Of a stretch of 64,000 bases of DNA, positions 28,429 through 64,000 are shown piece after piece. The DNA is from Microglena sp. YARC (Eukaryota > Chlorophyta > Chlorophyceae > Chlamydomonadales > Chlamydomonadaceae). How positions within the stretch are numbered: position 1 is the stretch's first letter; the number at the start of each line of letters is the position of its first letter. The stretch is taken from assembly GCA_022414725.1 (NCBI GenBank), contig CM039465.1:39830435-39894434 (forward strand), read 5' to 3'. The notes under the pieces were generated by a model, which was not told where the DNA came from, did no database searches, and worked only from the letters and a program-made list of their open reading frames with translations. Position numbers and translations under genes: made by a program.

Positions 28429-28559
28429 GCGAGCTCAATGCCATAGAACTGGCGTGTGGGAGGTGCTGAGTCTGATCCGCGACTGCCAGAATTGCTGGGA
28501 AAGCTGGGAGATGTTGTTAGAAGAAGAACAGGGCTGGGAGAAGGCAGTAACGCAGGTCG

Positions 28560-41023: not shown

Positions 41024-41075
<52 letters not shown>

Positions 41076-41315
41076 GCAAGCAAGTGAGTCAGCAAGCAAT
41101 TTATTTACTTACTCACCATTAAATTGCACATGCACAAACGCATGCAGGGGGTGGTGATAAGACATACTATTTATATATCTACTCACCTCCAGTTGGCACA
41201 TGCACACACGCATGCAGGGGGTGGTGATAAGACGTACTATTTCTTTATTTATCTATTTACTTACCCTCAATTGGTACATGCACAAACGCATACAGGGGGT
41301 GGTGATAAGGCGTAC

Positions 41316-41359
<44 letters not shown>

Positions 41360-44300
41360 TACTCACCCTCATGAGGCGTACTATTGATTGATTGATTTAC
41401 TCACCCTCACGCCCCGTAATAAGGCGTGCTATATATTTACCCAGCCTCAGATGGCACATGCCCACACGCATTCAGGGGGTGGTGGAGCGGTATATGATTT
41501 ATTTACTTACCCTCAGATGGCACATGCACACACGCATGCAGGGGGTGGTGATAAGGCTTACTATTGATTGATTTACTCACCCTCATGCCCCGTTATAAGG
41601 CGTGCTATTTATTTACCCAGCCTCAGATGGCACATGCCCACAAGCATTCAGGGGGTAGTGATGAGGCGCATTATTTATTTATTTACTTACCCTCAGATGA
41701 CACATGCACACGCATACAGGGGGTGGTGATAAGGCGTACTATTGATTGATTGATTGATTTACTCACCCTCATACCCGGTAATAAGGCGTGCTATTTATTT
41801 AGCCAGCCTCAGATGGCACATGCACACACGCATTCAGGGGGTGGTGCATGAGACTCAGTGCTTTAAACAAAAAGAAAAAGCACCCACAAATCGAAAACCC
41901 CCATTACATGAGGGGTGTGTCGAGGACAAACAAACCAAACTCCCAACCACCGTTTTGGTGGCATAGGTATTAAATCCCCTAGAGCAGGACCCTGATCTCA
42001 ACCACTAACAGTGGCGGAGGTAAGAAGCTGAAGGTGGTGAAGCAGCATATTATTTATTTACTTACCCTCAGATGGCGGATAAGGTGAGGCACGGAGGGAT
42101 AGTTGAGGCAGAAGTCGTCAATGTCAACAGTAGGCAACGTGAGCCCAGCACGAGTTAGCAGATTGCCGGCGTCTCGCACCTACGGCACGTTGGTGGGGGT
42201 GGTTGGTGTTGGTTGGTTGGAGTTGTTGGTTGTTTTTGTTTTTGTAAATGAATGTATGTGTTTCAGTCATGGTGAGGCACCGAGGGATAGTTGATGCAAC
42301 AGTCATAGATGAAGACTGAGCCATGCACGAGTTAGCAGACTGCCAGCATCTCACACCTACAGCAGGTTGGTGGTGGTGTTGGTGATTGGTGGTGTCAGTT
42401 GGTGGTGTTGGTTGGTGTTGGTGGTTGGGGTTGGTGCTTGGTGTTGGTTGGTGTTGGTTGGGTGTTGGTGGTCAGTGGTTGGTTAATGGTTGTTGTTGTT
42501 GTTTTCAGTCAACAAACAACAAGGTGAGGCACCAAGGGATAGTCGTGGCAAAATTCATCGCTGAAGACGGTAGGTAAGGTGAGATCGGTAGGGGTTAGCA
42601 GATTGCTGGCGTCTAGCACCTACAGCAGGTTGGTGGTGGTTGGTTGGTGGTGGTTGGTTGTTTTTGTTGGTTGTTTTTGTTTTTGCAAATGAATGTATGT
42701 GTTTCAGTCAAGAAACAACAAGCTGAGGCAGCAAGGGATAGTTGTAGCAGAATTCATCGATGAAGACGGTAGGTAAGGTGAGATCGGTAGGGGTTAGCAG
42801 ATTGCTGGCGTCTTGCACCTACATTAGGTTGTTGGTGGTTGGTTGTTGGTGGTTGGTTAGTGGTTGTTGTTGTTGCTGCTGCGAATTAATGTGCGTGTTT
42901 CAGTCAAGAAACAATAAGGTTAGGCACCTAGGGATGGTAGTGGCAAAAGTCATTGTTGTCAACGGTAGGAAATGTGAGCCTGGTACCAGTACGCCAGGGT
43001 TTTATTTTCCAGAATACATTCCGATCGGAATACGAGACCCCGTTTTGGCCGCAATTGCCGGAATAAGAAACCTAAAAAAAAGGTTTTTTTTTTAGTAATG
43101 AAATTGACTAGAAATGACCCAAATTTACCCAAATCCGAATAACGATTCTGTTTTGGGAGGAAAAAAGGGAGGAATAAAATAAAAAGGAGTGAGATTTCCT
43201 CTTTTTGATTTGAAAAAATATCCCTGCAGTACGCTAGTTGCCAGAGTGTCGCACCTACAGCAGGCACATGTATGGTCGTGTTTTGGTCAACAAAATAATA
43301 ATACAAAATACAAATCAATACAAATAATAACACAAATAATATAAAATAACACAAATAATAATACAAATAATAAAACAAATAATATAAAATAATAATGTTG
43401 GCACGAAGCTCCTTCAAAGTCTTGCAACCAGAAATGGAGCCTAAACCTAAACTCCAACAGACAAAGTTGAGCCCCAACAAACCAACAAAGCAAACAAAGA
43501 AGACACACCTAAACTCCAACAGAAAAACTTGAGCACCAACATACAAACCTGAGACCCAACAAACAAACAAACAAACCAAACACGGAAGACATACCTAAAC
43601 ACCAACAAACAAACACAACACCAACCAACAAACCTGATCAAAAACAAACAAACAAACCAAACACAAAAAACACACATAAACACCAGCAATCAAACTACAA
43701 CCCCAGCAAACAAATCCGAACACAAACAAACAAAAACTTTGATCAGAACGTGAAAACATCTGGGCACAAACAAACAAACAAACCAAACTTTTGATCAGAA
43801 CGTGAACGCACCTGGGCACAAACAAACAAACAAACAAACCAAACTTTTGAGCAGAACATGAACGCACCTGGGCAAGGGGTGATGTGATAGGTGAGACCCC
43901 CCCTTGACGCTCCAGCTGTGGGATACAGCACGAGACATGCGCAGCTCTGTCACCAATTTTGTTTGGGGTACAGCAGAGTACAGTGTTAAATCCCCACCTA
44001 TACAGAACCCGAACACACCCACCATGTCTTCTCCCTCACAACCTTTTGATCAGAACGTGAACAGGGTACTTCCATTGACCAAATTGGCCAGCGCTTGAGC
44101 GCACTTGAAAAAAACAAACTGCGCTGTGTACTGCAAAAAGTGCAAAAATTGCTTGCTGCGCCCCAGTGTTTTTTATTTCAGAAATCTTCAGGCCAATTTG
44201 GTAGCCACAAGTGGCGACCACAGGCTCATCCTGGGACGGTGCGGTAGCACCATCTGCACTAGGTGAATAAGTGACTTCCACCAGGAGTAGGCCTGAGCTA

Positions 44301-47300
44301 GCTACCTGGGCTGGGCCTGTGCGACCCAGGTGCGACCCAGGGCACAAATCACTGACCTGAGGGTCGCCATTGTGGCGACCAAGGGCCCATTTCGCCTGAA
44401 TTTTGCACACCCGAGGGTCGCACAGGGTGGCAACCGCGCGCCACAATATGCGACCGGTCGCACAAATAAAGAACACTGCTGCGCCCACAGGGGGTTGCAA
44501 AAAAACTGCGCGAAACGCGCAGTGGGGCTCAAAAGGCAGCGCGCCAGCGCGCGCTTGGAAGTACCCTGAATGTAAACGCACCTGGGCGAGGGGTGAGGTG
44601 ATAGGGGAGACCCCCCCTTGACGCTCCAGCTGGGCTGCGGCACAAGACATGCGCAGCTCGTTCAAAGTCTCACCACCAAACATGGAGCCTAAGAACAGCC
44701 CATCTGGTTTGAGCGCAATCCGGGCCTGCGCCAGTACACCCTGCAGAGGATACACATGCTGAGATGAGGCATGAGAGTCGTTCAGGCAGTGCTAAATTCC
44801 CTGCATCTCGAACATGTGATGAAATGAGGCATGGGAGACAGGCAGGCCTGGACTTAATACCTCGTGGTCAAACACATCTTAAAATCAGGTATGAGCGCAA
44901 TCCGGGCCTGGGCCAGGACACCCTGCAGTATGAACAAATGCTGAAATGAGGCATGAGAGTCATTCAGGCAGTGCTAAAATCCCTGCAGTTCGAACATGTG
45001 ATGAAATGAGGCATGGGAGACAGGCAGGCCTGGACTTAATACCTCGTGGTCAAACACATCTCTAAATCAGGTTTGGGCGCAATCCGGGCCTGCGCCAGAA
45101 CACCCTGCAGTTTGAACATATGATGAAATGAGGCATGAGAGTCATTCAGGCCTGGGCTAGAACACCCTGCCGTTCGGACACATGATGAAATGAGGCATGA
45201 GAGTCATTCAAGCAGTGCTAAATTCCCCGTGGTTCGAACACATGATGAAAGCAGGCATGATAGAAATTCAGGCCTCCCCCAGATATCCCGTGGTTCATTC
45301 ATATGATGCAATGAGGCATGGGAGACAATCAAGCAAGGGCTACATTTCCCGTGGTTCGATCACATAATGGAATCAGGCATGATGGACAATCAGGCATGGA
45401 CTAGATACCCCGTGGTCTAAACACATGATGAAATCAGGCATGAGAGACAATCAGGCCTACACTTATTATCCCGTGGTGAACACATCATGAAATCTATCAT
45501 GAAATATACAAGTACAAGTACAAGTACAAGCACAAGCATAAGCATCAGCATACACATACGCATACGCATAAGCATGAGCATAAGCATAAGCATAAGCATA
45601 AGCATACGCATGAGCATACGCATAAGCATAAGCATAAGCATACGCATACGCATACGCATAAGCATAAGCATAAGCATAAGCATAAGCATAAGCATAAGCA
45701 TACGCATAAGCATAAGCATAAGCATAAGCATAAGCATAAGCATAAGCATAAGCATAAGCATAAGCATGAGCATAAGCATAAGCATAAGCATAAGCATAAG
45801 CATAAGCATAAGCATAAGCATAAGCATAAGCATAAGCATAAGTATGAGTATAAGTACAAGTATAAGTATGAGAGTCGGGTATAAGTTTATCATGAAATCT
45901 AAGTATGAGAGTCGAGCAGACCTGGATTCACTGCAAATTTTAGGGGTCTCTGGCAAACTTGTATTTGGCTTGTAAGGGTGCATCCTGGATGAGAAGAGTG
46001 CCGTTGGGGTCTAGAAAAGGGTGCCCAACTAGATCAAGACTAACTAAAGTCGCAGTGATTGAAATTCCGTGTGGTCCAAACACATTAAAAAATCAGGTTC
46101 TATGGCAAGACCAGAACAATCTGCGGCTGAGGCAAAACGAAGAAAATCGTTCACTAAGGTTCAGGTGTATGGAACGGCAATATGATAACTGCTATGTCAT
46201 CATATGATATCATATGATGCCGGCAGTCTGAGTAGATCAAGTTAGCATTTATATCCAATATCATATGATGCAATTTGTATGATATCATATGATATCATAC
46301 TTGCCCTTGATCAACATCATATGATATGCCGGTCCGTAACAATATGCGGCAAAGGCAAAAAAAGAAGAAAATAGTTCACCAAGTTTTAGGTGTGATTGCC
46401 ATGAACTCCTTTTTTCTTTGTTAAGCCAAGCCAACTTGCCTTGGCTTGGTCATTTGACTCTAAACCTGAAAGTATGTCCGTTACATTACATTGAGTATTC
46501 AAATCCAAACTACCATACTGCATCAGGCCTAGGCTTGGACAACCTGACCGCCCTCATCCAATGTCAGTTGGCTTGGGGTGGTTATTTGTGGGTTTGGGGT
46601 GGCGCGTTTGGGGTGGCGTAGCGAAAACTGTCATCTGGTATCCTCAAGTGGCGTGGGTCCGAGGGCCTCGGTCGAGGTTAAGGTCAGGTTGCCCTGGACT
46701 TCGTTAGACCTAGGCTTGAACAACCTGACCACCCTTATCTAACGCCAGTTGGCTTGGGGTGGTTTTTTGTGGGTTTGGGGTGGCGCGTTGGGGGTGGTGT
46801 GGCAAAAACAGTCATCTGGCATCCTCAGTTGGCGTGGGCCCGAGGGCCTCGGTCGAGGTTAAGGTCTGGCTGCCCTTGACTCTGGAAGGTCTAGGCTTGA
46901 ACATCCTAACCGCCTTATCAACCTGAGGTGACCGGCCCATGTCAAGGGTTCATGCGCAGGTGGCGTGGCCTGACCGTCCTTATCAACCTGAGGTGACCGG
47001 CCCATGTCAAGGGTTCATGCGCAGGTGGCGTGGGATGAAGGCCTCAAATGATTGGAGTGGGCCGAAGGCCTCAGTCGTCGCCAAATTCTTAGGTATAATC
47101 GGCACCTCCAGTGTGACCAGTGTTACAGTGGAGTCTCTGCTACATTGAGGGCGGTAACAAGTAGGGGTCGGCAATATGATATCATATGATATCATGTCAT
47201 CATATGATATCATATGATGCCGGTGGTCTGACTAGGTAACTTTGGCCTGGGCCATCATATCATAAGATATTAAATCATATGATTTTGGCATGATATCATA

Positions 47301-48085
47301 TGATATCATACTCGTCTTTGGTCAACATCATATGATTTGCCGTTTCCTAGTAACATGGCAACAATGGTAAAAATAAAATCCATCTACCCAGCCACCCACC
47401 CATTGAACAAGCTATCTACCTGTCTACCCACATGTCGAACAACCCATCTACGCACACCTCCGACCGACCGAGTGTAGAAGAAGAAGACAGACCTCAATAC
47501 TCACCGGTAAATCATTGTGCCAGTGAAGGCCCAAGCTGCTGATGACGACTGCAAGCAGGAAGTAGGTGCGGGGTCAGGTGGGGTAAGGAGTATCACGAGC
47601 TAGCTATCACATCCTCCCACCCTCAAGCCATCCATCCATCTATTCAGCCAGCCATCCATCCATGCAAAGAGGATATATAGTCAGGTGAAGGAAGGATTAT
47701 CACAAGATAGCTACCCGCCCCTCCCACCCTCAAGCATTCCATCCATCCATCTATCTGGCCATCCATGCAGAGAGGAGATTAAGTCAGGCGGGGGAAAGAT
47801 TATCACAAGCTATCTATCCCCCCCTCCCCACCTTCAATCATCCCATCTATCCATCCATCCATCGATGCAGAGAGGTGAGGGAAGGATTGTCACATGCAAC
47901 CTATCCCCCCCTTCCCCCACTCTATCAATCCACCCATCCACCCATCATCCATGCATGCATGCATGCATCTAGACATCCACCTACCTATCCACCTGCTCAT
48001 CCAGGTTTCTGTCTGGGTCGCAAAGGGTAGTGGTGAAAGTCACGATTGGGGGGGACATGTGTGTGTGTGTGAGGGGGTACGTGTG

Positions 48086-48121
<36 letters not shown>

Positions 48122-50341
48122 GGGGGGGGGGATGTCCCACCTTTCCAACGTGAAATTCCTACTTATGTAGGACTTCTTCCGCCTTTCTTCCTTAACCCTT
48201 AGTGGCATTTGTCTGGGAACAGGGTCCCACTTCCTAGTGTGAAAATCCTTCCATAGATAAAAAGCAAAATAAGTTATATGCAGCGTCGCATGCGACGCTA
48301 AAAAATGGCTGAGAGTGATCGCAATGGAGAAACGGGCGGCAACAGAAGCGAGTTAGTTACGTGACTCTTGGCTGACGTGTCAGGCTTCATCGCGGTCAGA
48401 CAGATGGTCGGTCGCACAGACTGACAAATGGGTAACCCCGGGGCTCCAGCCCCCTGGAAGAGGGGGATCCGCCAAACATGAAATAAGATCAAACATCCAT
48501 CAAGCTCACGACCTGATTATATTTGTGAAATAAAAATGACAAAAGATAAAACGTCCATTAAGCTCACGACCTGATTATATTTGTGAAATAAAGATGAAAT
48601 AAGATAAAACGTCCATCAAGCTCACGACCTGACTCTTTTTTTGTCTTCACTTGCCGTACTTTCCGCCTGGCTACCTACAGAAAGATAGTCTGCGAGGCTA
48701 AACCAGACGCTTACGCTCAGCCCTGGCCAACATTGGACACCCGTCAAATTGATGGTGGTCAAGTGCCTCTGGAGGCTGGGAATGTAAATAGTGAGTGGAA
48801 GGCTGGCGGTGAGTTGAGTGGAGGGTGGGTACCTTGCCCTTTTTTTTGCTAAGCTTAGCAGCTTCTAAGCAGCTCCCTTTACCCACCCTTGGGCCGAACC
48901 TGAAGCTAGCTAGTGTGCCTTGAAGCCTGACTAGCTACCGGCCTTTCTTTTTGGCGGAGCCCCCTCTTCAAGGGGGCGGGAGCCCCCATGTTTACCCATT
49001 TGTCCGTCTGACCGAAAAATGTATTGAAGCCTGACACGTCATCCAACGGTCGCGTAACTAACTCGTTTCGATCAGCTCCATCGTTGCCACCTTTCGTTCT
49101 GTTGCCAACACACTCAACCAATTTTCCGCGTCGCTTGCGACGCTGCATAGGACTTGTTTGGGCTACTCATGTCAGCTTCCCGCCAGCTCCAATATCCAGC
49201 CGCTGGGTCAAACCCAATGCTTGAAGTTGCATGCTGGCCAGATCAGCTTTCAGACACACTAGCTAGCTTCGGGTTCGTCCCAAGGGTGGGTAAAGGGAGC
49301 TGCTTAGAAGCTGCTAAGCGTAGCCAAGAAAAGAAGCACGGCTAAGTACCCACCATCCACTCAACCCACCACCAGCCTTCCACTCACTATTTACACTCCC
49401 AGCCTCCTGAGGCACTTCACCGCCATCAATTTGACAGGTCTCCAATGTTGGCCAGGGCTGGGCATCGGCGTCTGGTTTAGCCACGCAGACTGTCTTTCTG
49501 CCTGGCTACCTGCCTAACTACCCACCTTTCACTCAACCCACCACCAGACAGCTACCACCACACATTTACACTCCCAGCCTACAGGCCACTGTTGTCACCC
49601 TCCATATGACGGGTCTCCGATGTTGGCCAGGGCTGGGCATCGGCGTCTGGTTTAGCCACGCAGACTGTTTTTCTGCCTGGCTACCTGCCTAACTACCCAC
49701 CCTTCACTCAAACCATCACCAGACAGCTACCACTCACCATTTACACTCCCAGCCTCCAGAGGCACTGTGTCACCCTCCATTTGACGGGTCTCCAATGTTG
49801 GCCAGGGCTTGGCATCGGCGTCTGATTTGGTGTCCCTAGCATGCTGATCACGAAGTCGCTTGACCCGATCGAGCATGTCCTGGGAGGCGTCGACCAACAC
49901 AACATGTTCGATTCCAGATCGAGTTCCTGCCAGGCGGGCTAGCACGTGCTCGGCTGTACAAACCAGGCAAGGGCAGGGCAGGGTATAAGGCGGGAAATAG
50001 GTAAGAAGGATGAACTTACAAACATGGGGGTGGAGGGAAGGAAACAGGGGTGGGGGGATAGGGGTGGGGGTGGGGGGCTTTCTGTGTTTACAACTAGGAT
50101 GAACGGACAGACAGGGGTGGGGGGGAGGAAGGAAACAGGGGGGGGGGGGGGGGGGGGGGGAGCTTCATGTGTATATAAGTGGGATGAAGGTACAAACATG
50201 GGGGGGAAGGAAAGGAAGCAGGGGGGTGAGAGGGGGGGGGGGGGGGGGGGGGGAGGGGGGGGGGGAGGGGGATGTAGGGCAGCTTCATGTGTCTGTAAGT
50301 AGGATGAACGTACAAACATGGGAATGGAGGTAAGGAAGCAA

Positions 50342-50377
<36 letters not shown>

Positions 50378-52820
50378 GAAAACAGGGAGAGGGCAGCCAC
50401 CGCGAATGACCTCTTGAAGTCCAGATCAGCTGCCCCCCACCCACCCACCCACCCACCCCACCCCACCCCCCCACCCACACCCACATCCTTCCATTTTGCC
50501 GTGCCTCCCCCCCATCCACTCCCTCCACCCCACCCCCTCCACCCCCACCCACATCCTTCTCTTTTTTCATGCCTTCCCCCCACCCAACCATAAATCATTT
50601 GTGACCCAAATTTCATAAACTCACATGCCCCTCCCAACACAGCAGCCACTGGGAATAACCTCTTGCAGTCTTCAAGCCTATCCAGCAGACGTTCAGAAGC
50701 CACAGACAGCAAGGGATCATCGCCGCTGCCCAGGTATGCAGCTCGATCTCGATGCCTCTCCTTAAAGGCACTGCGGAGTTGGGTTGGGTTGGGTTGGGTT
50801 GGGTTGGGTTGGGTTGGGTTGGGTTGGGTTGGGTTGGGTTTGGGTTGGGTTGGGTTAGGTTGGGTTGTACAGGATTGGTTTAGTTTGGTTTGGGCTGGTT
50901 TGGATTGGTCTAGGCATGGTTGGTTTGGTTTGGGTAATGACTAATGAGTCTGATGTACTGATGTGCATATCTCGAAGCCTCGTAAAGGCACTGCACAGTG
51001 AGACATGGACGATTACACCCTAATATAACGGGTTTGCTAAGGGTTGACTAGCTGGGGAACAGCTGAGTCTTGAAACTGTAAGGTAATCCAGAAACATACC
51101 ATAGGCAGTACAACTAAAAACTACTTTTCCTGGGATTTTTGACCATTTAACCGATTTTTGACAGTTTTCTATGATTTCCGACCGCCCCAACCGTTTTGGG
51201 GGATTTTTGACCATTTTCTCAGTTCCCATCACACAGGTCAGCGCCAACGAGCAAGCCAACTGTAAGGCAATCCAGAAAACGACATAACCAAATAATCAAT
51301 GAATGGAGCATCTGCAATTACACCCTAATATGTATGGAACGGCAATATGATATCATATGATATCATGTCATCATATGATGTCATACGATATCTTTTGATG
51401 TCGGCAGTATGACTAGGCTAAAGTTACTATTTATATGCAATATCATATTATGCAATGTGCATGGTATCATTTGATATCATACTCGCCTTTGGCCAACATC
51501 ATTTTATACGCCAGTCCCTACAAATATAGGATGAATATAGGATGAAACACTTAACACAAAAAAGTCTTCTTAATTTTTTGAAAGATGCCTCGCCTTAAAG
51601 GCACTGCACAGCACGGCACGGCACTGCACAGCACTGCACTGCACTGCACAGCACTGCACGGCACTGCAAAGCACTGCACGGCACTGCACAGCACAGCACT
51701 GCACGGAACTGCAAAGCACTGCACTGCACTGCACTGCACTGCACTGCACAGCACAGCACTGCAAAGCACTGCACTGCACTGCACTGCACTGCACTGCACT
51801 GCACTGCACTGCACTGCACTGCACTGCACAGCACTGCAGGGCACTGCAAAGCACTGCACTGCACAGCACAGCACTGCACAGTGAGCAAAGGATGAAACAC
51901 TGACGATGATCCCCTGCGTGTTCAGAAAATGGTAACGCCTGGTGGGGCGTGATTTTAAAGGAGCCCGTCGTACGCGAGAGAGAGAGCGGTCTTCTACCTC
52001 AACTGGACAAGCTACCATTGCGGTTGACAACGACCTGCAACGCTGAGGGCGACCGAAGGGGGAATCGAACCCCCGACTCTTCATCCTCAAAGCGATTTTG
52101 TCTACCACTAGACCAATATATGTCACTGAAAGGGGCCGCGTTCAGATATGATGTTGATGTATGATCAAATATTTGATATGGTATGATATATGATATATCA
52201 CCATCATATGATGGTGAAATATGATTCGGGATTAGGATGCTGATCAGGGTTTAGGGTTTGGAGGCATTTTGTAAGAGGGCACAATCAATGGGCATGGATT
52301 GGAATATGTTAAGGTGCACGTGTGTTCGATATAAGCACACAATCTGTGTGCATTATGGCCATTCAGCGGATGATTTGGAGTTGGGTTTTATAAACACTTT
52401 GTAGTATATACTTTGTAGCTTGAACTTGAGAATTCTGCCTGGTAATTCTGACATTTTGGCTTGAGAATCGATAATTCTGATAATTGACAAAAATTGTGCC
52501 TGACAGAGTGGAGATAATACAACTATGCACCATTGAAAGATACTACAATTACAAGTACGAGACCCAAATCCAAGCCTATTCCTGAATGGTCATAATGCAG
52601 GACAGAGTTTCCCCCCCCCCCCTATATATAGCTTCCCCTACTTTGACCCCGGTTTTGTACAAATTACCGCTATAAAGAACCCATCTTTATGGCACTATTA
52701 GGCCTTAAAAAGCTATAGTGGCGCTGTCTCTTGAGGAGGGCCTAAACCCTTCCCTGATTCCCCAACCTGATCTTCTGACCCAACCTGGAGAAGAAGAAAA
52801 AAACTGATGAGTTGCCCCTC

Positions 52821-53153: not shown

Positions 53154-54058
53154 AGTGACGACTGGCAGGTTGGGGAAGAATGAAGCACAGGAGGCGAAGG
53201 TGTGGCGTCGTCAGGTGTCGTGGATTGGGAGTGTGCAGAAAATAAGTTAGCGCTCGGAGTGCTAGTGTGTGTGTGTGTGCTGGTGTCTACACCGGGAAAG
53301 ACGACCTAGCCTCTATGAGGCGTGGCGTGAGAAGAGTGAGCTGCCCTCGGTGTGGCTGATATTGTAGCTATGTGTGCGGTAGCTAGTAGCTAGGGCTGTG
53401 GCTGTCAGTTCAATTTCCCCCGATTGTGTGCGGCAGCAGTTGGCGCGTTTGTCTTCGGGCCAGTATCCCTGCATAATACGCACGATGTTCCGTGCATTAG
53501 CCTGGTCTATTCACCTCGATCTTCAGGCGATCTAAATGCACTAAGAGCTCAGGATCCAGATCGCTAAGCCCGACACCATCAGCACAATTTCTCACCTTTG
53601 CTTTCTTCCTTTCGCCCATTTGCCCGTCCCCTATCTCTCTAGAAGAAAAATAGTAATTGTCACAAGCGTCCTTTAGGCGTCTAGCCGACTGCAGCATACA
53701 ATCCGTCTCCCGAAACCAAGGAGTGTAACCAGCAGGATTCGAACCCAGGACGTCTCTCCCTCAACCCAGACGAACCACTCCCCAACGAAGGCATCAGCAC
53801 TTTTTCCTGCCTCTTCCATCCACCCACTTGTTGGCACGAACGAAGCCTGGTGCGCATGAGAATTTCCCCCCACCTCACGACCTTGAGGTAACCCTCAGCC
53901 CTGGTTCCTAGCCCACCAGCTCATTCCCCCCCAGCTGTACTAGGACATAGGCCTGCCTGCCTGCGACCGCTTTTCCTGGGCCTCCCGTACTGAGCCATAG
54001 CCCACTGCCTGCGCGGCCCTAAGACCTGGAGCACCCTAGTGAACCTCTACAAGTGGGC
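53154..54058. promoter_or_regulatory. Divergent promoter interval between NDUFAF5 and GTF3C5 homologues
   Basis: The two start codons (53153 minus, 54059 plus) lie 905 bp apart in head-to-head orientation, so the interval should hold both promoters. Minus frames at 53497-53878 have no recognisable domain. The first ATG of the plus gene follows an in-frame TAA at 54020. A tRNA-like A/B box pair lies inside (53735-53785). There is no clear TATA box. Confidence 0.6.
53728..53795 (-). promoter_or_regulatory. tRNA-like A-box/B-box pair, candidate TFIIIC site
   Basis: On the minus strand TTGGGGAGTGG (53785-53775, A-box-like) is followed 29 nt later by GGTTCGAATCC (53745-53735), an exact match to the B-box consensus GGTTCGANTCC. 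A full cloverleaf is not evident. It could be a SINE relic, a tRNA pseudogene or a TFIIIC-binding site. Its position, in the promoter of a TFIIIC subunit gene, makes the last worth testing. Confidence 0.6.
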
Positions 54059-55452
54059 ATGGATTCCACCCCAGATAGTCAGACACTCAGGGCCCCCCCT
54101 ATTGGACCTCTTCAAGGGGGCATGGAATCACCTTCGGAAAGTCAGGCATTCAAGGTCCCCGATGCCACCTACGTGGCTGTGGAGTATCCCGGCTACGTGC
54201 GAAACATGGAGCGAGCCATGGAAACACTTGGGGGCCTTCCCTCTGTAGCAGGTAGTCCGGGTGGGGGGATTGGTTTTGTGGAGTGGGGTGGGGGTAGGTG
54301 GGGGTGGTGGGGTGCTATAGTGGGATTGTGGGGGTGGGGTGGGGCTTTGGGGGTTATATGTCGGTTGGGGTGTTGTTGGGGTTGCCAGACGTGCCAACAA
54401 ATTCAAAACATGCTTGTCAGACAATATGTTGGAGGAAGGTCAGGGTGGGGGATTGGTTTTGTGGAGTGGGGTGGGGGTAAAGTGGGGGTGGGGTGGTGCT
54501 TCTGGGGGTTATGTGGGGTAGGGTGTGTGTTAGGGTGGGGCTTTGGGGGGGCTTTCGGGTTTATATGTAGGTTGGGGTGCTCCCAGAAGTGCCAACAAAT
54601 ATAGAACATGTTGAAATGATTGTCAGACACTTTATAGGAGGTAGTCAAGGTGGGGGGATTTTTGTGGGAAGGGGTGGGGCACAGGAAAACAAACTGTGGG
54701 CTCCTGTATCGTACTGTACTCCCTTTTTTCTACTTTACTTGCATCTGTTTTTCTCTTACTTGCATCTGTCTTTCTATGCTGTTTTTCTCTTACTTGCATC
54801 TGTTATTCTCTTACTTGCATCTGTCTTTCTATTTTTTGCATACTCGCACCCCTTCAACACTTTGTTTTCCGTTCAACATGTCGCAAATTGAGCGACTCGG
54901 TGCGACGCCAGTGCCACGCGCTGCCCCCCCCCCCCCCCCGAACCCTTTGCAGCCACTCACCCTCCACCTCCAGCTGCCATGTCAGCGCCACGCATCCTTG
55001 CCAGTCCCCCCCACCACCACCACCACCACACCACACACACACACACACACACAAAACTCACGCACACAAACTCACACACACACCACACTCACCCTCCACC
55101 CTCCAGCTGCCATGTCAGCCACAAGCATCCTTGCCAGCCCCCCCCCCCCCCCCCCCCCTTCCCCTCCCCCCCAACCCACACGCGCCCACACCCCCACACC
55201 CCCACACACTCACCCTCACCCTCAATCTCACCCTCCACCCTCATAATTCACCCTCCAGCTGCCATTTCAGCACAAGCATCCTTGTCAGTCCCCTCCCCCC
55301 CCCCCTCCCCCCCCCCCCCAACCACACACAAACACACACAACACACACTCACCCTCAATGTCACCCTCCACCCCCCACCCTCATCTTTCACCCTCCAGCT
55401 GCCATGTCTAGCACAAGCATCCTTGTCAGTCTCCCCCCCACCACCACCACCA

Positions 55453-55487
<35 letters not shown>

Positions 55488-55822
55488 CACCCCCCACCCT
55501 CCAGCTGCCATGTCAGCACAAGCATCCTTGTCAGTCTCCCCACCACCACCACCACCCTCACCCTCACCCTCTACCCTCCAGCTGCCATGTCAGCACAAGC
55601 ATCCTTGTCAGTCTTCCCCCACCCCGCCACCCCCCACCCCACACACACCCTCACCTCAATCTCACTCTCCACCCTCACCCTCATCATTCACCCTCCAGCT
55701 GCCATGTCAGCACAAGCATTCCTTGTCAGTCTCCACCACCACCACCACCACCACACACACACACCCTCACCCTCACCCCCCACCCTCCAGCTGCCATGTC
55801 AGCACAAGCATCCTTGTCAGTC

Positions 55823-55896
<74 letters not shown>

Positions 55897-55990
55897 ACAC
55901 ACACCCTCACCCTCAATCTCACCCTCCACCCTCACCCTCACCATTCACCCTCCAGCTGCCATGTCAGCACAAGCATCCTTGTCAGTCCCC

Positions 55991-56045
<55 letters not shown>

Positions 56046-59000
56046 CCTCAATCTCACCCTCCACCCTCACCCTCACCCTCACCATTCACCCTCCAGCTGC
56101 CATGTCAGCACAAGCATCCTACCTCAAGGTCAACTACCGACCTGACGACCCGAATTCCCATCCCATCTTGGGCGACCGCAAGGAAAGCCGCAACCTGCTT
56201 CTCCGAATCAGCCGCAAGCGAGGCACTGCTGGTGGTAGTGAGGGCGACGAGGCCCCAACAGTGAAGTGTGTGGCTAGAGTGAACACCACCTTTCGCTTCG
56301 ACGGACTGTGCGACTACCAGTACTTGCCCATAGACTCAGGTGAGGAAAGAAGGCAGACCCGTTCCCAGGCATTCTCATGCAACCCCACTCCACCCACACA
56401 AATGCAAGACACTAGTGGTGGTAGTGAGGGCAGCGTGGCCCCAACAGTTAAGTTTGTGGCAAGGGTGAACACCACCTTTCGCTATGGCAGACTGTGTGAC
56501 TACCAGTACTTGCCCATAGACTCAGGTGAGGATTGAAGGCAGACCCCCTCTCAATCACTCCCATGCCACTCCACTCCACTCCACCCACACAAAAGCGAGG
56601 CACTGGTGGTGGTAGTGGGGCAAACGTGGCCCCAACGGTGCAGTGTGTGGCAAGGGTGAACACCACCTTTCGCTTTGATAGTCTGTGCGACTACCAGTAC
56701 TTGCCCATAGACTCAGGTGAGGAATGAAGGCAGACCCACTCGCAATCACTCCCATGCCAACCCACCCACTCCACCCACACAAAAGCGAGACACTGGTAGT
56801 GGTAGTGAGGGCTACGTGGCCCCAACGATGAAGTGTGTGGCCGGGGTTATCACCACCTTCCGTCATGGCGGACAGTGGGACCACCAGTACTTGCCCATAG
56901 ACTCAGTGAGGAATGAAGGCAGACTCACTCGCAATCACTCCCATGCCACCCCACCCACTCCACCCACACAAAAGCAAGACACTGGTAGTGGTAGTGAAGT
57001 CAGCGTGGCCCCAACGGTGAAGTGTGTGGCTAGGGTGAACACCACCTTTCGCTTCGACGGTCTGTGCGACTACCAGTACTTGCCCATAGACTCAGGTAAG
57101 GAATGAAGGCAGACCCACTCGCAATCACTCCCATGCCACCCCACCCACTCCACCCACACAAAAGCGAGGCACTGGTGGTGGTAGTGAGGCAGGCATGGCC
57201 CCAACAGTTAAGTTTGTGGCCAGGGTGAATACCACCTTTCGCTTCGACGGACTGTGCGACTACCAGTACTTGCCCATAGACCCAGGTAAGCAAGGCATTA
57301 TGTCTGTTCCCACTGTCAGACCCTCCCATGCAACCCCACCCCACCTGCCTAACCCAAGCTAACCAAAACTAAAATAAAATAACCCAACCTAACCAAAACT
57401 AACCTGACCACCCCTCCAGGCTCCCGAAATGCACGCGACTACCAAAACACTACAGCTGGGGACGACCTCAAGCATGCAGAACCCTCCCAGCCATCCCAAC
57501 CCCACCTCAACCCACCCCACCCCATCCCATCCCTCCCCATTCAATCCCACCCCACCCCACCCCACCCCACCCAATCCCCTCCAGGTTCCCGAAACGCACT
57601 TGACTACCAACACACTCCAGCTGGGAACGACCCCAAGACAGCAGAACCCTCCCAGTCATCCCAACCCCACCTCAACCCACCCCACCCATCCCTCCCCACC
57701 CAATCCCTCCCCACCCCACCCCACCCAATCCCCACCAGGTTCCCGAAACGCACGTGACTACCAACACACTCCAGCTAGGAACGACCCCAAGACAGCTGAA
57801 CCCTCTCAGTCATCCTAACCCCATCTCAACCCACCCCATCCCATCCGTCCCCCAACCCAACCCAACCCAATCCCCTCCAGGCTCCCGAAATGCACGTGAC
57901 AACCAACAAACTCCAGCTGGGAACGACCCCAAGCAAGCAGAACCCTCCAAGTCATACCAACCCCACCTCAACCCACCCCATCCATCCCCTCCCCACCCCA
58001 CCCCATCCCTCCCCACCCAATCCCACCCCACTAAATCCCCACCAGGCTCCCAAAACGCACGTGACTACCAACAAACTCCAGCTTAGAACGACCCCAAGAC
58101 AGCTGAACCCTCTCTGTCATCCCAACCCCACCTCAACCCACCCCACCCCATCCCTCCCCACCCAATCCCACCCCACCCAATCCCCTCCAGGCTCCCAAAA
58201 CGCACTTGACTACCAACACACTCCAGCTGGGAACGACCCCAAAGACAGCTGAACCCTCTCAGTCATCCTAACCGCATCTCAACCCACCCCACCCCATCCC
58301 ATCCCTCCCCATCTAATCCCACCTAATACCACCCCACCCAATCCCCACCAGGATCACGAAACGCACGTGACTACCAACACACTCCAGCTGGGAACGACCC
58401 CAAGACAGCTGAACCCTCCCAGTCATCCCAACCCCACCTCAACCCACCCACCCCATACATCCCCACCCAAATCCACCCTAACCCAATCCCCGCACCAGGC
58501 TCCCAAAAGGCACGTGACTACCAACAAACTCAAGCTGGGAACAACCCCAAGACAGCAGAACCCTCCCAGTCATCCCAACCCCCACCTCACCCCAACCCAC
58601 CCAACCCATCCCATCCCTCCCCACCCAATCCCCACCAGACACCCGAAACGCACGTGACTACCAACACACTCCAGCTGGGAACAACCCCAACCAAGCAGAA
58701 CCCTCCCAGGACGCTGAAAGCCTGATGTCTGTGCCGCCCATCTTCTCAGAGGCAGACGAGACACCTGACCAGAACACACCAAACCCAACCTACACGAAAC
58801 TATGCTGCACTGAACCCAACCTACATGAAACCCAATCTACATGAAACTATGCTGCACTGAACCCAACCTACATGAAACTACGCTGCACTGAACCCAACCT
58901 ACATGAAACTACGCTGCACTGAACCCAACCTACATGAAACTACGCTGCACTGAACCCAACCTACATGAAACTACGCTGCACTGAACCCAACCTACATAAA

Positions 59001-62000
59001 AATACGCTGCACTGAACCCAACCTACATGAAACTACGCTGCACCAACCCAACCGAAACCCAACCTTCACCGAAACCCAACCTACATGAAACTACGCTGCA
59101 CCAACCCAACCGAAACCGCAACCAACCGAAACCCAACCGTACACCGAACCCAACCCAACCAAAACCCAACCTACACCGAAACCCAACCCAACCGAAACCC
59201 AACCTACACCGAAACCTAACCCAACCAAAACCCAACCTACACCGAAACCCTACCCAACCAAAACCCAACCTACACCGGAACCCTTCCCAACCGAAACCCA
59301 ACCTACAAACCCAACCTACATGAATCTACGCTGCACTGAACTACCCTACCCTGCACAAGCATAACCTACCCTACCCTTAACTAAGTTAAACTTAACTAAA
59401 CTAAACTATCCTGACCTAACCAAACCTAACCTACACCGATACAAAAATATCCCAACCTCACCTATCAAAATGTGACCACCCCTCCAGGCCCCCGAAATGC
59501 ACGTGACTACCAACAAACTCCAGCTGGGAACGAACCCAAGCAAGCGGAACCCTCCCAGTCATCTCAACCCCACCCCATCCCTCCCCACCCCACACCATTC
59601 TATCCCTCCCCACCCGATTCCACCCCACCCAATCCCCACCAGGCTCCCGAAACGCACGTGACTACCAACAAACTCCAGCCGGGAACGAACCCAAGCAAGC
59701 TGAGCCATCTCAGGTTGCTGAAAGCCTGATGACTATGCCGCCCATCTTCTCAAAGGCAGACGTCCCTTTCGACTACTCTTTCAAGCAGTTCCATGCACTC
59801 CCTAGTACATCAAAGAAACAGGTTCCAACAGGTGGGCAACAGGGACTGGTTCTGACTGAGGGTCTGGGTCTGGGTCTGACTTTCACTCTGGGTCTGGGTC
59901 TGGGTCTGGGTCTGGGTCTGACTTTCACTCTGGGTCTGTGTCTGGGTCTCGGTCTGACTTTCACTCTGTGTCTTGGACTGGGTCTGACTTTGGCTCTGAC
60001 TCTGGCATACGCACATGGCCTAGCCCTAGCTATTAGTTGTAGCCCTGGTGTTTCAAGCAGTCCCATGCACTCCCTAGTACAGCACAGAAACAGGTTCCAA
60101 CAGGTGGGCAACAGGGTCTGGTTCTGACTTTGGGTCTGTGCCTGTGTCTGGTCTAGCATACGCACACAGCTTAGCCCTGGCTACCAGTTGTAGCCCTGGT
60201 GTTTCAAACAGTCCCATGCACTGCTTATCACGGCAAAGAAAACAAGTTCCAAGTTCCAACAGGTGGGCATTTCCCTAGGGGAGGGGCCCACTTGAGGCAG
60301 CTTTTAGCTGCTTAATACTTGGGGGGGGTAGCTAGTCTGCCTATGGGTAAGCTATTCCGCCCCCCTTTGGGGGGTGAGCTAGTCCGCCTATGGGCGGAAT
60401 AGCTTACCCATAGGCGGACTAGCTCCAAGTACCGGCCCTCTGGGCGGTACTAGCAAGTCTGCGAGTACCAGCCCTCTGGGCAGTACTCGGGAGTGGGCCC
60501 CTCCATGAGGGAAGGGGCCCACTTGAGGCAGCCATAGCTGCCTTATACTTGACCCCCCCAAAGGGGGGGCGGTACTAGCTTACCCAGAGGCAGAGGGCCA
60601 TTCAAGTACTGCCCCCCTGGGCACTACTCACAAGTGGGCCCTCCCCTTAGGGAGGGGTCCCACTTGAAGGTACTTGGTAGGCCACTTGGAAACGGAAGGG
60701 TTTCACTTCGGTTCCAGCATGATTGGGGCAATGCTTTTTATGTTGATTCGTATGTTGAGGGCCGGTACTTGGACGTCAAAGTAGGTTGGTGGTTTGAGAC
60801 CGCCTCTGTCCCAGTGCGGGCCCCGGAGTCTCGTTGCAGCATTAGATTGTTGATACTTGAAAGTTTTAACAATCTTACAAGCATGTAAACTTTAACAATC
60901 TTACAAGCATGTAAGCTTTAACAATATTCAAAGCTGTAACAATCTTACAAGCATGTAAGCTTTAACAATATTCAAAGCTTTAACAATCCTACGGGCATGT
61001 TCAACAACCTTAAAAGGCCTGTAAGATTGGTAGTAACCCCCCCCCCCCCACACACACACACACACCAACCCCAACCCCAACCCCATTTACCCCCCCCCCC
61101 CCCCCACACACACACACACACACGCACAACCACCCCCCTCATCTCTCCTGATGCAATGCAAAACCACTGACCACTTCTGCACTCGCAGATACCGCCTTTG
61201 CCAACCTTGAGCAATGTAGCATTCTTATTCCAGAAGTCCCCCAGCCACTTCCGGAACCTGACTTTGTCGGCAGCGACGGAGAAGGTGAGAGGCCTGACAC
61301 TGTGGTTGTTTCTAAGGCAAGGGGCAGTGGTTCTAAGGCAAAGAGCAGAATCCCACCACCACCACCATCCTATCCCCCCACCCCACCACCAGCCATCACC
61401 AGAACCTGACTGTGTCGGCAGCAACGCAGAATGTGAGAGTCCTGACACCAAGGTTGATTAAACCTCAACCACACCCCTTCAACCACTAACACACCCTACA
61501 CAAGGCAATGAGCACTTTTTTTCCGACCCGTCGCAAATTGAGACACAAAGTTTGTTTCTAAAGCAATATGCAGAACACCACCACCACCACCACCATCCTA
61601 TCCCCCACCCCCACCCCCAGCCACTGCCAGAAGCTGACTTTGACGGCAGCAATGGAGAAGGTGAGAGGCCTGACACCAAGTTTGTTTCTAAGGCAAGGGG
61701 CAGTGGTTCTAAGGCAAACAGCAGAATCCCACCACCACCACCACCATCCTATCCCCCACCACCAGCCACTCCCAGAACCTGACATCGACAGCAGCAACGG
61801 AGAAGGTGGGAGGCCTGAGACCAGGGTTGATTCTAAGACAAGGGGCAGTGGTTCTAACGCAAAGAGCAGAATCCCACCACCACCACCATCCTATCTCCCA
61901 ACCCCACCACCAGCCACTACCAGAACCTGACATTGACAGCAGCAACGGAGAAGGTGGGAGGCCTGAGACCAGGGTTGATTCTAAGACAAGGGGCAGTGGT

Positions 62001-63466
62001 TCTAACGCAAAGAGCAGAATCCCACCACCACCACCATCCTATCTCCCAACCCCACCACCAGCCACTACCAGAACCTGACATTGACAGCAGCAACGGAGAA
62101 GGTGGGAGGCCTGAGACCAGGGTTGATTCTAAGACAAAGAGCAGTGGTTCTAAGGCAAAGAGCTGAATCCCACCACCACCACCATCCTATCCCCCACCTC
62201 CACCACCAGCCACTACCAGAACCTGACTTTGTCGGCAGCGATGTAGAAGGTGAGAGGCCTGACACCAGGGTCGTTTCCACCTCAACCACACTCCTTCAAC
62301 CACAAACACACCCTACACAGGGCAATGAGCACTTTTTACCGACCCGCCACAAATTAAAACAAGAAGGTTGTTTCTTAGACAATGCGCTGAACACCACCAC
62401 CACCACCATCCTATCCCCCACCCATAGCCACTGCGGTAAGCTGATTTGATGGCAGCAACGTAGAAGGTGAGAGTCCTGACACCAGGGTTGTTTCTTAAGC
62501 AATAAGCTGAACCCCACCACCACCACCACCACCATCCTATCCCCCACCACCAGCCACTACCAGAACCTGACTTTGTCGGCAGCAATGCAGAAGGTGAGAG
62601 TCCTGAATCCAGGGTTGATTCAACCTCAACCACCCCCCTTCAACCACAAACACACCGTACACAGGGCAATGAGCAATTTTTTCAACCCGTCGCAAATTGA
62701 AACAACAAGGTTGTTTCTTAGACAATGAGCTGAACACCACCACCACCACCACCACCATCCTCTCCCCCACCCCCAGCCACCACCAGAAGCTGACTTTGAC
62801 GGCAGCAACGGAGAAGGTGAGAGGCCTGACTCCAAGGTTGTTTCTTAGGCAATTAGCTGAACACCACCATCACCATCACCATCCTATCCCCCTCCCCCAG
62901 CCACTCCCGGAACCTGACATTGACGGCAGCGACGTAGAAGGTGAGAGGCCTGTCAACAAGGTTGTTTCTAAGGCGATGGGCAATGGTTCTAAGGCAAAGA
63001 GCAGAATCCCACCACCACCACCACCACCACCATCCTATCCCCCAGCTCACCCCTCCCCAAACCAATTCTGTCCAAAAACCAAGCAGGATAAATCAAATCA
63101 AAAGAAAACAAAAGATATTAAATAGCATCAGGTAGCACATATGTCAAATATTGAGGACCAGTGCCAAATAATAAAAGAAAGCAGAACAAAAAAAGCAAAT
63201 CAAACCACAATAAATCAAAAGAAATTAAATATCAAGTAGCACGTAAATCATATATCGAGTACCAAACAATAAAAGAAAGCAAAACAAAAAAAGCAAACAA
63301 AATGAAAGAAAATGAAATTAAGCCCCACCAAAACAAACCAAGCTTAATCCCAGCACGTCCACACCAACACACCCACCCACCCAAGAAAAATAACTACCAC
63401 AAACCCTCCTGCATGCCTACCCCCACCTCATTGTTGAATCTTCTACTTTCCTTCACCCCCCCCCCC

Positions 63467-63507
<41 letters not shown>

Positions 63508-64000
63508 CAACCTTCCAGCTTTGGCGAATTTTGTCAAGCTTCAGCTGGAGCTTCGGCCCATCTGGTGCATTCATCACTTGCTGGAGACCTTGTTGGATGG
63601 GCCTTGCGCAGAGGGGTGTGGGTGGGGGCCTAGCCCACAGGAGACCCGGGTTCTGTTGGAGGAAGTCTTGAAGAAGCTGTGCTACACCTTCAAGACAGGT
63701 ACTGTTGGGGGATAGGATGTTTGGGTGTGTTTGGGGTAGTGTGTGTGTGGTAGGTGGGGGGGGGGGGGGGGGGGGTCTGATGGCGGGAGTGTTGAAGAAG
63801 CTGTGCTGCACTTTTAAGACAGGCAGTGTTTGAGGATGGTGTGTTTGGGGTAGTGCGGGTCTTAAACCGACCTGTAGCCAAGAGGAAAGGGTCAGAAATT
63901 GGGGTATTAATTAATTGCGAATTGGTTGGGTGAGCTGAGCCCCTTGGGTTACACCGGGGGTTACACCCAGAGCAGGTACTTGGGCAAGAATTTCGGTCTG
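54059..64000 (+). CDS. GTF3C5: TFIIIC tau95 / GTF3C5 homologue (5' part, runs off window)
   Basis: Exons: 54059-54251, 56097-56339 (an in-phase alternative acceptor exists at 56109), 59643-59831, 61189-61284, 63519-63698 and 63976 to the window end; more exons must follow. All junctions are GT-AG and in phase. Exon 1 has YVAVEYPGYVRNMERAMETL; exon 2 YLKVNYRPDDPNSHPILGDR, LLLRISRKRG, TVKCVARVNTTFRFDGL and YQYLPIDSG; exon 3 MTMPPIFSKADVPFDYSFKQ; exon 4 DTAFANLEQCSILIPEVPQP; exon 5 ELRPIWCIHHLLETLL and YTFKTG; exon 6 starts TWARISV. This order matches GTF3C5/Tfc1/Sfc1: the N-terminal dimerisation barrel, then the start of the winged-helix DNA-binding domain. The protein is a TFIIIC subunit contacting the A box of tRNA genes for RNA polymerase III. 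The introns contain arrays of exon-edge copies (listed separately). The choice of exon 3 copy is inferred from its continuity into PPIFS. Confidence 0.9.
54252..54900 (+). repeat. G-rich and CTTACTTGCATCTG repeats in GTF3C5 intron 1
   Basis: 54260-54670 alternates GTGGGGGTGGGG stretches with two copies of GGTTTTGTGGAGTGGGGTGG and two of GTGCCAACAAAT. 54730-54840 has about five CTTACTTGCATCTGTNTTTC units. Confidence 0.85.
54957..55990 (+). repeat. Nine tandem copies of the GTF3C5 exon 2 acceptor edge
   Basis: Each copy reads CACCCTCCAGCTGCCATGTC followed by AGCACAAGCATCCTTGTCAG, reproducing the exon 2 start at 56090-56120 (CTCCAGCTGCCATGTCAGCA, then CAAGCATCCTACC). Copies begin near 54960, 55103, 55251, 55393, 55497, 55575, 55690, 55785 and 55949. 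C-tracts and CA microsatellites separate them (C-run of about 58 at 55825-55882). All diverge from the true exon right after CAAGCATCC. Confidence 0.95.
56400..57290 (+). repeat. Five tandem copies of the GTF3C5 exon 2 donor half
   Basis: With about 190-bp period, the 3' half of exon 2 (GGCCCCAACAGTGAAGTGTG through ACCAGTACTTGCCCATAGAC and TCAG) recurs, ending at about 56526, 56715, 56908, 57094 and 57285. Each is followed by a donor-like sequence (GTGAGG, GTGAGG, GTGAGG shifted by a missing G, GTAAGG, GTAAGC). The spacer contains CCACTCCACCCACACAAAAG. Protein-level similarity is well kept in most copies (VARVNTTFRFDGLCDYQYLP). Confidence 0.95.
57415..58770 (+). repeat. Nine tandem copies of the GTF3C5 exon 3 acceptor edge
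   Basis: Units of about 145-165 bp start CCAGGCTCCCGAAACGCACG, continue TGACTACCAACACACTCCAG and CTGGGAACGACCCCAAG, and are linked by CCCCACCTCAACCCACCCCA. Copies begin near 57419, 57581, 57738, 57880, 58045, 58189, 58351, 58497 and 58638. The last extends into GCTGAAAGCCTGATGTCTGT and CCGCCCATCTTCTCAGAGGC, almost a whole exon. Confidence 0.95.
58770..59460 (+). repeat. 29-bp and related CCAACCTACA minisatellites
   Basis: 58800-59040 has about eight units of ACTACGCTGCACTGAACCCA followed by ACCTACATGAA. 59040-59320 changes to AACCGAAACCCAACCTACAC units. Located in GTF3C5 intron 2. Confidence 0.92.
59480..59560 (+). repeat. Tenth copy of the GTF3C5 exon 3 acceptor edge
   Basis: CTCCAGGCCCCCGAAATGCA at about 59484, immediately upstream of the copy at 59643 that continues into the full exon. 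Confidence 0.9.
59832..60270 (+). repeat. GGTCTG repeat and two copies of the GTF3C5 exon 3 donor edge
   Basis: 59850-60000 is a (GGTCTG)n array with GACTTTCACTCTG inserts. 60048-60111 and 60205-60268 repeat the exon 3 end: TTTCAAGCAGTCCCATGCAC, TCCCTAGTACAGCACAGAAA and CAGGTTCCAACAGGTGGGCA. Confidence 0.88.
60275..60665. repeat. Complex inverted repeats including a 48-bp hairpin
   Basis: 60377-60424 has an 18-bp perfect stem AGCTAGTCCGCCTATGGG with a 12-nt loop. The motifs GAGGGGCCCACTTGAGGCAG (60281, 60512) and CAAGTGGGCC (60630) recur in both orientations. TAGTCCGCCTATGGG, TAGTCTGCCTATGGG and CGGTACT also repeat. Confidence 0.85.
60850..61000 (+). repeat. Minisatellite around AACAATCTTACAAGCATGTA
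   Basis: About five units of TTTAACAATCTTACAAGCAT followed by GTAAGC, some with the variant AACAATATTCAAAGC. Confidence 0.88.
61380..62970 (+). repeat. About ten tandem copies of the GTF3C5 exon 4 donor half
   Basis: Units of about 105-220 bp (typically about 145) repeat the exon 4 end, CCAGCCACTACCAGAACCTG, then ACTTTGTCGGCAGCAACG and GAGAAGGTGAGAGGCCTGAC, with CACCACCACCATCCTATCCC between. Copies begin near 61388, 61616, 61763, 61910, 62055, 62203, 62430, 62550, 62775 and 62899. Most keep a GAAGGTGAGA or GAAGGTGGGA donor. Three copies also share a segment with CAATGAGCACTTTTTTCCGA and CAAATTGA (61505, 62320, 62667). Confidence 0.93.
63060..63518 (+). repeat. A-rich 80-bp duplication, C-tract and CA repeat before exon 5
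   Basis: 63115-63200 and 63222-63310 share TAAAAGAAAGCAGAACAAAA-type sequence. 63460-63505 is a C-tract followed by (CA)n just upstream of the exon 5 acceptor CCTTCCAG. Confidence 0.85.
63780..63835 (+). repeat. Copy of the GTF3C5 exon 5 donor edge
   Basis: GTGTTGAAGAAGCTGTGCTG followed by CACTTTTAAGACAGGCAGTG mirrors the exon 5 end at 63665-63705. The donor GT has become GC here. Confidence 0.88.

Follow-up and report, generated by a model that had tools for sequence, protein, structure and literature searches.

Serial copies of exon edges lengthen introns of a green alga, consistent with tandem duplication across exon–intron junctions

The lengthening of introns is usually explained by transposable elements. 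Introners, intron-making transposable elements of some algae, occur as dispersed similar elements, and intronic minisatellites (variable number tandem repeats) consist of repeat units, tens to hundreds of bases long and arranged head to tail, with variable copy number and multimeric periods. Tandem duplication has also been described as a source of introns. In the potato RdRp gene, a single tandem duplication across an intron–exon boundary is summarized as having made a new intron (PMC4974935), and novel introns of Drosophila are attributed, in the abstract of the study concerned, to the tandem duplication of a coding stretch that contains a proto-splice site (PMC2891723). Here we describe a stretch of 64,000 nucleotides from the green alga Microglena sp. 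YARC (hereafter the window; positions 39830435–39894434 of its contig, CM039465.1, in an assembly of 568 Mb and 2,390 contigs), in which the introns of the gene GTF3C5 contain serial copies of the edges of their own neighbouring exons.

Like minisatellites, the algal arrays are built of head-to-tail units with multimeric periods, as found with Tandem Repeats Finder (TRF); unlike them, their unit holds exon sequence and an intact-looking splice site and is anchored on a real junction. Large-scale intron change in algae is shared with the introners, but the copies described here adjoin, and appear to derive from, their own exon, whereas introners are dispersed. The closest likeness is to the potato event as summarized, a boundary-crossing tandem duplication whose putative branch site, pyrimidine tract and splice site come from the parent (PMC4974935). 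That event was single and gave a new intron, whereas in the alga an existing intron lengthens, arrays reach 10 copies and 36/90 exon sides are involved. With Drosophila the alga shares the supply of intron sequence and splice sites by regional tandem duplication; there, exonic duplications turned into introns, and the abstract describes no arrays of junction copies such as the alga has (PMC2891723). The layout of the copies also fits exon definition, in which pairs of splice sites are recognized across the exon, insensitive to intron length (PMC3488318, as summarized), yet this is a splicing mode and no sequence family, and would here be a putative mode suggested by layout. Among the listed titles and opening lines of abstracts in the open-access literature, there were neither arrays of exon-edge copies nor serial junction copies that lengthen introns. 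An earlier reading of the window, made from the sequence only, had known of no described system with such regularity; this does not stand for the single junction-crossing event, known from potato (PMC4974935), and stands, at title and abstract level, for serial use in many genes. What appears to be new is thus the serial use of junction copies in many genes as a mode of intron lengthening.

Exons 1–5 of GTF3C5 form a single open frame with GT-AG introns within the window (54056–63698, plus strand), and exons 6, 7 and 8 were found in frame in the next 10 kb of the contig, beyond the window (stretch L007). The predicted product has the Pfam domains Tau95_N (1.3e-26) and Tau95 (1.1e-5) and matches PDB chain 8clk_E, named GTF3C5 (1.7e-19), which upholds the identity proposed by the sequence-only reading. 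Each exon was aligned locally against its own flanking introns, and matches were accepted above the level reached by 10 Markov shuffles and by the reversed intron. Within the window, 37 exon copies were detected in the introns of GTF3C5. All 37 contained the near edge of their exon to within 3 bases and none carried the far edge, so that the rule put forward earlier, with the 5′ edge copied before an exon and the 3′ edge after it, holds in 37/37 cases. The earlier counts were likewise reproduced exactly, with 9 copies upstream and 5 downstream of exon 2, 10 upstream and 2 downstream of exon 3, 10 downstream of exon 4 and 1 downstream of exon 5; this alignment gave no copies for exon 1 or upstream of exons 4 and 5. 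The single copy after exon 5 is correct inside the window only, as the window end cut an array whose true total is 8, of which 6 reach the donor edge. When the next 10 kb was included, GTF3C5 had 58 copies, 55 of them at the near edge, the exceptions being two copies of exon 5 that end before the donor is reached and a copy of exon 8 that lies downstream though taken from the 5′ half. The exons and arrays within the window are as follows.

54056–54251, plus strand: exon 1; start placed by hand just ahead of the ATG, donor CAG/GTAGTC
54974–55979, plus strand: exon 2 acceptor edge, nine copies (exon positions 1–24), AG kept in 9/9
56097–56339, plus strand: exon 2; open frame, domain match
56404–57285, plus strand: exon 2 donor half, five copies (exon positions 120–243), unit about 190 bp, GT kept in 5/5
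57420–59558, plus strand: exon 3 acceptor edge, ten copies (nine end at positions 67–71, one at 120), AG kept in 10/10
59643–59831, plus strand: exon 3; open frame, domain match
60051–60252, plus strand: exon 3 donor edge, two copies (from position 137), GT kept in 2/2
61189–61284, plus strand: exon 4; open frame, domain match
61386–62940, plus strand: exon 4 donor half, ten copies (about positions 50–96), unit about 124–148 bp, GT kept in 10/10
63519–63698, plus strand: exon 5; open frame, domain match (exons 6–8 lie outside the window)
63772–63822, plus strand: exon 5 donor edge, first of eight copies (the other seven at 63997–64758, window numbering extended)

Long-period head-to-tail arrays were found by TRF in GTF3C5, for example with units of 190, 165 and 148 bp. 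The share of introns 1–5 lying between the junction and the outermost edge copy was 61, 96, 31, 74 and 53 %, respectively. When the DNA of exon 2 from position 24 was compared with the whole assembly, the six matches were the exon itself and its five downstream copies, with one candidate region scored. At L007 1109–2430, visual inspection shows about 25 short copies of the acceptor of exon 6 (GATGCAG/GTCCTTG), of which the alignment scan counted the 7 longer ones. At 54034–54160, a tandem duplication of 63 bp, a length divisible by three, overlaps the coding part of exon 1.

The same layout was found in other genes. The second gene of the window, on the minus strand (35362–50770), has eight exons that form a single open frame of 322 amino acids; we take it to be NDUFAF5-like. 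CCT genes were picked by Pfam family Cpn60_TCP1, independently of repeats, which gave 64 matches with several genes covered exon by exon. Five were used (L027–L031), the exon matches of each lying within 10 kb; other clusters, some equally compact, were left out. CCT exon borders were set from the domain match, GT/AG and phase, partly by hand; not all 29 exons have both borders fixed, and two have an apparent one-base frame break. These five genes, on four other large contigs, had the same layout of exon-edge copies as the window genes. Copies were held by 22/58 CCT exon sides, and the 71 direct copies (62 with the near edge, none with the far edge or both, 9 with neither) compare with 1 match on the opposite strand. 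A possible GC donor (CAG/GCAAGT) was seen in one CCT intron, at L029 ~4080 in gene orientation.

The seven genes together provide 90 exon sides (16 from GTF3C5, 16 from the NDUFAF5-like gene and 58 from the CCT genes). Among their 143 copies, 126 carried the near edge, none the far edge, none both and 17 neither. Copies were present at 40/90 exon sides and near-edge copies at 36/90 (19 acceptor, 17 donor), with up to 10 edge copies per side and a median copied exon length of 61.5 bases. With one representative per side, 36/40 were at the near edge, compared with a mean of 1.7 and a maximum of 8 when intervals were placed randomly in the exon (20,000 trials). Between the junction and the outermost edge copy lay 21,042 of 65,354 intron bp (38 introns), while 13/38 introns were without any such stretch. 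As the copies lie inside introns whose flanking exons join in frame, the duplications lengthen introns, and the earlier suggestion that introns here grow by tandem duplication across junctions is supported, with a large contribution to intron length.

Coding-like fragments were also tested in an unselected set of 19 stretches (L008–L026), comprising 18 random 10-kb stretches of the window's contig and the stretch adjoining the window. Fragments were ranked by codon usage, so only some are likely exons, and L018 and L020 had first been inspected by eye. All 83 fragments within fixed limits were tested. No copy was found for 51, and 15, some of them perhaps not exons, had partial copies only. 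The other 17, which included satellites or coding repeats, were excluded since more than 80 % of the fragment was matched by a copy. The partial copies came from the half predicted by their side in 47/49 cases, and 17/18 fragment-sides obeyed the rule. The clearest case was a 195-base fragment in L020, whose 6 upstream copies are confined to bases 1–47 and whose 10 downstream copies start no earlier than base 115; by eye, the acceptor CAG is kept in 4/6 and the donor CAG/GT in 9/10. Exon-edge copies, for which a search of other genes of the genome had been suggested, are thus present both in CCT genes and in coding-like fragments.

The copies comprise exon together with adjoining intron in direct orientation, as expected of tandem duplication. 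The 25 intron bases beside a copy had a median identity of 0.80 to the real flank, against 0.52 for random nearby 25-mers. One or a few exonic breakpoints were used per array, and higher-order periods occurred (e.g. 190/379 bp). The real splice dinucleotide was kept in 110/126 copies compared with 99.6 expected from the identity of the exon part (z 2.4, copies non-independent), an excess that is a hint only. AG was present in 63/68 acceptor decoys and GT in 47/58 donor decoys, which bears out the earlier description of arrays of decoy splice sites. Site strength was compared with 36/38 real donors and 36/38 real acceptors, the rest having no GT/GC or AG at the assigned border. Acceptor decoys did not differ clearly from real acceptors (medians 8.4 and 9.4, p 0.19), and 56/122 decoys equalled or outscored the real site of the exon concerned. 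Weaker decoys as the whole account of correct splicing were accordingly rejected. In 5/98 cases, splicing at a decoy would preserve the frame and introduce no stop; 30 copies were excluded from this test because the number of open frames in their exon was other than one. Judged by frame and homology, the decoys probably go unused.

Mean divergence among copies in the exon part was 6 % for the array upstream of exon 2, 14 % downstream of exon 2, 12 % upstream of exon 3 and 14 % downstream of exon 4, and the linkers differed between copies in these four larger arrays. Differences among exon 2 donor copies numbered 51, 56 and 69 at the three codon positions, with about 410 compared at each; this near-equal spread gives no sign of coding constraint.

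Our preferred explanation, to which we give a probability of about 0.75, is that tandem duplications spanning one exon–intron junction have been amplified as arrays and are tolerated through nearest-pair splicing across the exon. The process would start with a duplication of about 60–200 bp whose ends fall on opposite sides of the junction. The layout of the copies shows that the extra copy then lies beyond the exon border, on the upstream side where the acceptor was included and on the downstream side where the donor was, leaving the full exon intact beside a new half-exon with a splice site. Common exonic breakpoints and multimeric periods suggest that unequal exchange or slippage would add further units and simple-sequence linkers. 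The copies would survive through exon definition, with the nearest acceptor and donor paired across the exon, whereas duplications within an exon or of a whole exon would change the mRNA and be purged by selection. The net effect would be one-way growth of introns at exon edges, as part of a wider habit of intronic tandem duplication in this genome.

The protein-compatible exon sits between the last acceptor copy and the first donor copy, a layout consistent with exon definition. Pairing of the nearest sites across the intron would select the first acceptor copy or the last donor copy, and the frame would mostly be lost; if the first-transcribed site always won, donor arrays would be harmless and acceptor arrays would not. 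Nearest pairing of acceptor and donor across the exon is the only simple rule seen under which decoys of both kinds would stay silent. In introns with both kinds, donor copies all preceded acceptor copies (8/8), so the decoys enclose no short exon.

The side rule itself, which the sequence-only reading had treated as a surprising regularity, is less surprising than it appeared, because tandem duplication over one junction leaves the exon whole and places the extra part outside it on the spanned side; the geometry alone yields the rule. It nevertheless speaks against dispersed insertion of exon pieces and against decayed whole-exon duplicates. That the copies are remnants of whole-exon duplication, or of mutually exclusive exons with one copy decayed, is accordingly very improbable: they are exon-like and many retain a splice site, but the retained edge faces the exon in 126/126, where decay at random would be expected to spare halves of both kinds. 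That the copies are genuine alternative exons was also rejected, since one edge is missing (0/143 with both) and the exon 2 copies have no codon-position constraint. An origin in faulty assembly is scarcely credible either. The first 8 kb of the window looks unpolished around a 1-kb run of N, and the apparent frame breaks in two CCT exons could be cited for it, yet the 13 exons of the window join cleanly into two open frames, the rule is found again on contigs C1, C2, C3, C4 and C5, and the 6–14 % mean differences among copies of the larger arrays look unlike a single sequence repeated by assembly stutter.

Growth of ordinary minisatellites in long introns, in which exon edges are included by chance and splicing plays no part, is a possible if doubtful account, and it overlaps the mutational half of the preferred explanation. 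Among 58 long-period arrays in the seven genes, 24 held edge copies (15,808 bp) and 34 held none (12,591 bp), although 4 of these 34 end within 20 bases of an exon and may be arrays of the junction's intron side. By a strict test in the two window genes, local duplication was found at 340/436 and 338/869 complex intron positions compared with 5/9 and 3/15 junctions, a comparison that is not clean as the intron positions include the copies themselves. Long-period arrays covered 4,735 of 9,945 bp of GTF3C5 and 5,936 of 15,409 bp of the NDUFAF5-like gene, compared with 180 of 32,909 bp elsewhere in the window, a figure that leaves out the first 5.7 kb, itself array-rich. In the 18 random 10-kb stretches of the contig, coverage ranged from 0 to 97 %, which means that arrays are not limited to these genes, and a 150-bp unit placed randomly in a short intron would often span a junction. 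Introns here tandemly duplicate in general, and junction-spanning units are one outcome. Against chance as the full account, the absence of any copy with both edges (0/143) suggests that a filter acts, and the harm expected from decoy use (5/98 frame-safe) leaves their tolerance to be explained. Another view, that the copies are functional, as alternative half-exon borders or as decoys with a regulatory or helping role in the removal of long introns, is improbable. The kept splice dinucleotides and the presence of up to 10 edge copies on a side could be read in its favour, but few decoys preserve the frame, the exon 2 donor copies are free of codon-position constraint, copy number ranges from 1 to 10 and more than half of the exon sides do without.

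Several observations weigh against the preferred explanation of duplication across junctions and nearest-pair splicing. No near-edge copy is present at 54/90 exon sides, and 17/143 copies are without any exon edge. The wrong half was copied downstream of exon 8 of GTF3C5 (exon positions 9–95, at L007 7857–7943) and in two copies in L010. By eye, the exon 2 acceptor unit has an apparent dispersed copy about 12 kb downstream of exon 2 (L007 ~8610–8645), and the donor-half region of the second exon of the NDUFAF5-like gene, with its flank, has one inverted copy at 48678–48926 (reverse-strand score 111) that is not a direct tandem. Donor decoys score lower than real donors (medians 7.4 and 9.8, p 0.002), and strength may therefore help discrimination. 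Exon definition is here a putative mode, read from position only. Exon edges as proven hotspots of duplication are not supported, as 34/58 arrays hold no edge copy and intron positions are duplicated no less often than junctions. In the exon 2 donor array, differences numbered 176/1,228 in the exon part (five copies) and 21/396 in the intron part (copies 1–4). Simple neutral decay would predict equal divergence of both parts; the excess may reflect clustered mutation, conversion or selection against exon-like decoy sequence. The opposite holds for the acceptor arrays of exons 2 and 3 and for the donor array of exon 4, in which the intron part diverged more.

A stronger proposal, that a junction-spanning one-way ratchet builds much of the intron growth genome-wide and that the splice-site arrays are weakly selected and join in splicing, for example as points of stepwise removal or as decoys holding splicing factors near the exon, is unlikely. 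With about a third of the intron sequence in the seven genes made up of arrays that start at a neighbouring exon border, these introns offer a readable record of their growth. They also provide a natural test of splice-site choice, as a junction is offered up to ten times, often at similar strength, and in almost every case tested a single splice choice preserves the protein. This is relevant to whether splicing in green algae works by exon or by intron definition, and genomes of this kind may mislead gene predictors and spliced-read aligners.

The protein of the NDUFAF5-like gene matched Methyltransf_11 (1.9e-9) and BioC (2.2e-24, far below the cut-off of the BioC model), and a search of the PDB gave no chain at 1e-3. 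Its flanks held 14 exon copies, 9 with the near edge, 5 with no edge and none with the far edge. Its exons (N1 being the first exon found) and copies are as follows.

51584–51603, minus strand: N1 acceptor edge copy (exon positions 1–20), upstream of N1
50625–50770, minus strand: exon N1
49738–49953, minus strand: exon N2
49389–49653, minus strand: N2 donor half, two copies (positions 126–216)
47505–47548, minus strand: exon N3
44884–45104, minus strand: N4 acceptor edge, two copies (positions 1–39), inside a 60/182 bp array at 44702–45492
44582–44740, minus strand: exon N4
43868–43947, minus strand: N4 donor half copy (positions 82–159)
42271–42980, minus strand: exon N5, four copies, of which three begin at the acceptor edge and the outermost is positions 35–101
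42066–42179, minus strand: exon N5
40278–40343, minus strand: exon N6
36633–36698, minus strand: exon N7
35362–35520, minus strand: exon N8, which holds the stop codon

Rfam and tRNA scans of the window gave no match. Positions 1–8400 look unpolished around a gap of 1,000 N (4738–5737), and the first 4.7 kb is mostly a degenerate array with CCCTAAA-like motifs. Retroelement fragments were found on the minus strand at 27598–31131, with RVT_1 (1.2e-22), RNase H and a PHD finger (2.9e-11). Among the random stretches, L024 (1–10000) was 97 % satellite with units of about 62/127 bp. The plastid PsaB of this assembly (L032) matched photosystem I chains of the PDB; the two top-scoring chains, those of Chlamydomonas reinhardtii, differ from it, and Dunaliella salina chains scored slightly below them, a result that fits a chlorophyte alga in general, and D. 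salina was rejected as the source. Matches to plastid psaA/psaB were present on chromosome-scale contigs (e.g. C5:24910957–24911940), some with stops, and look like nuclear plastid DNA.

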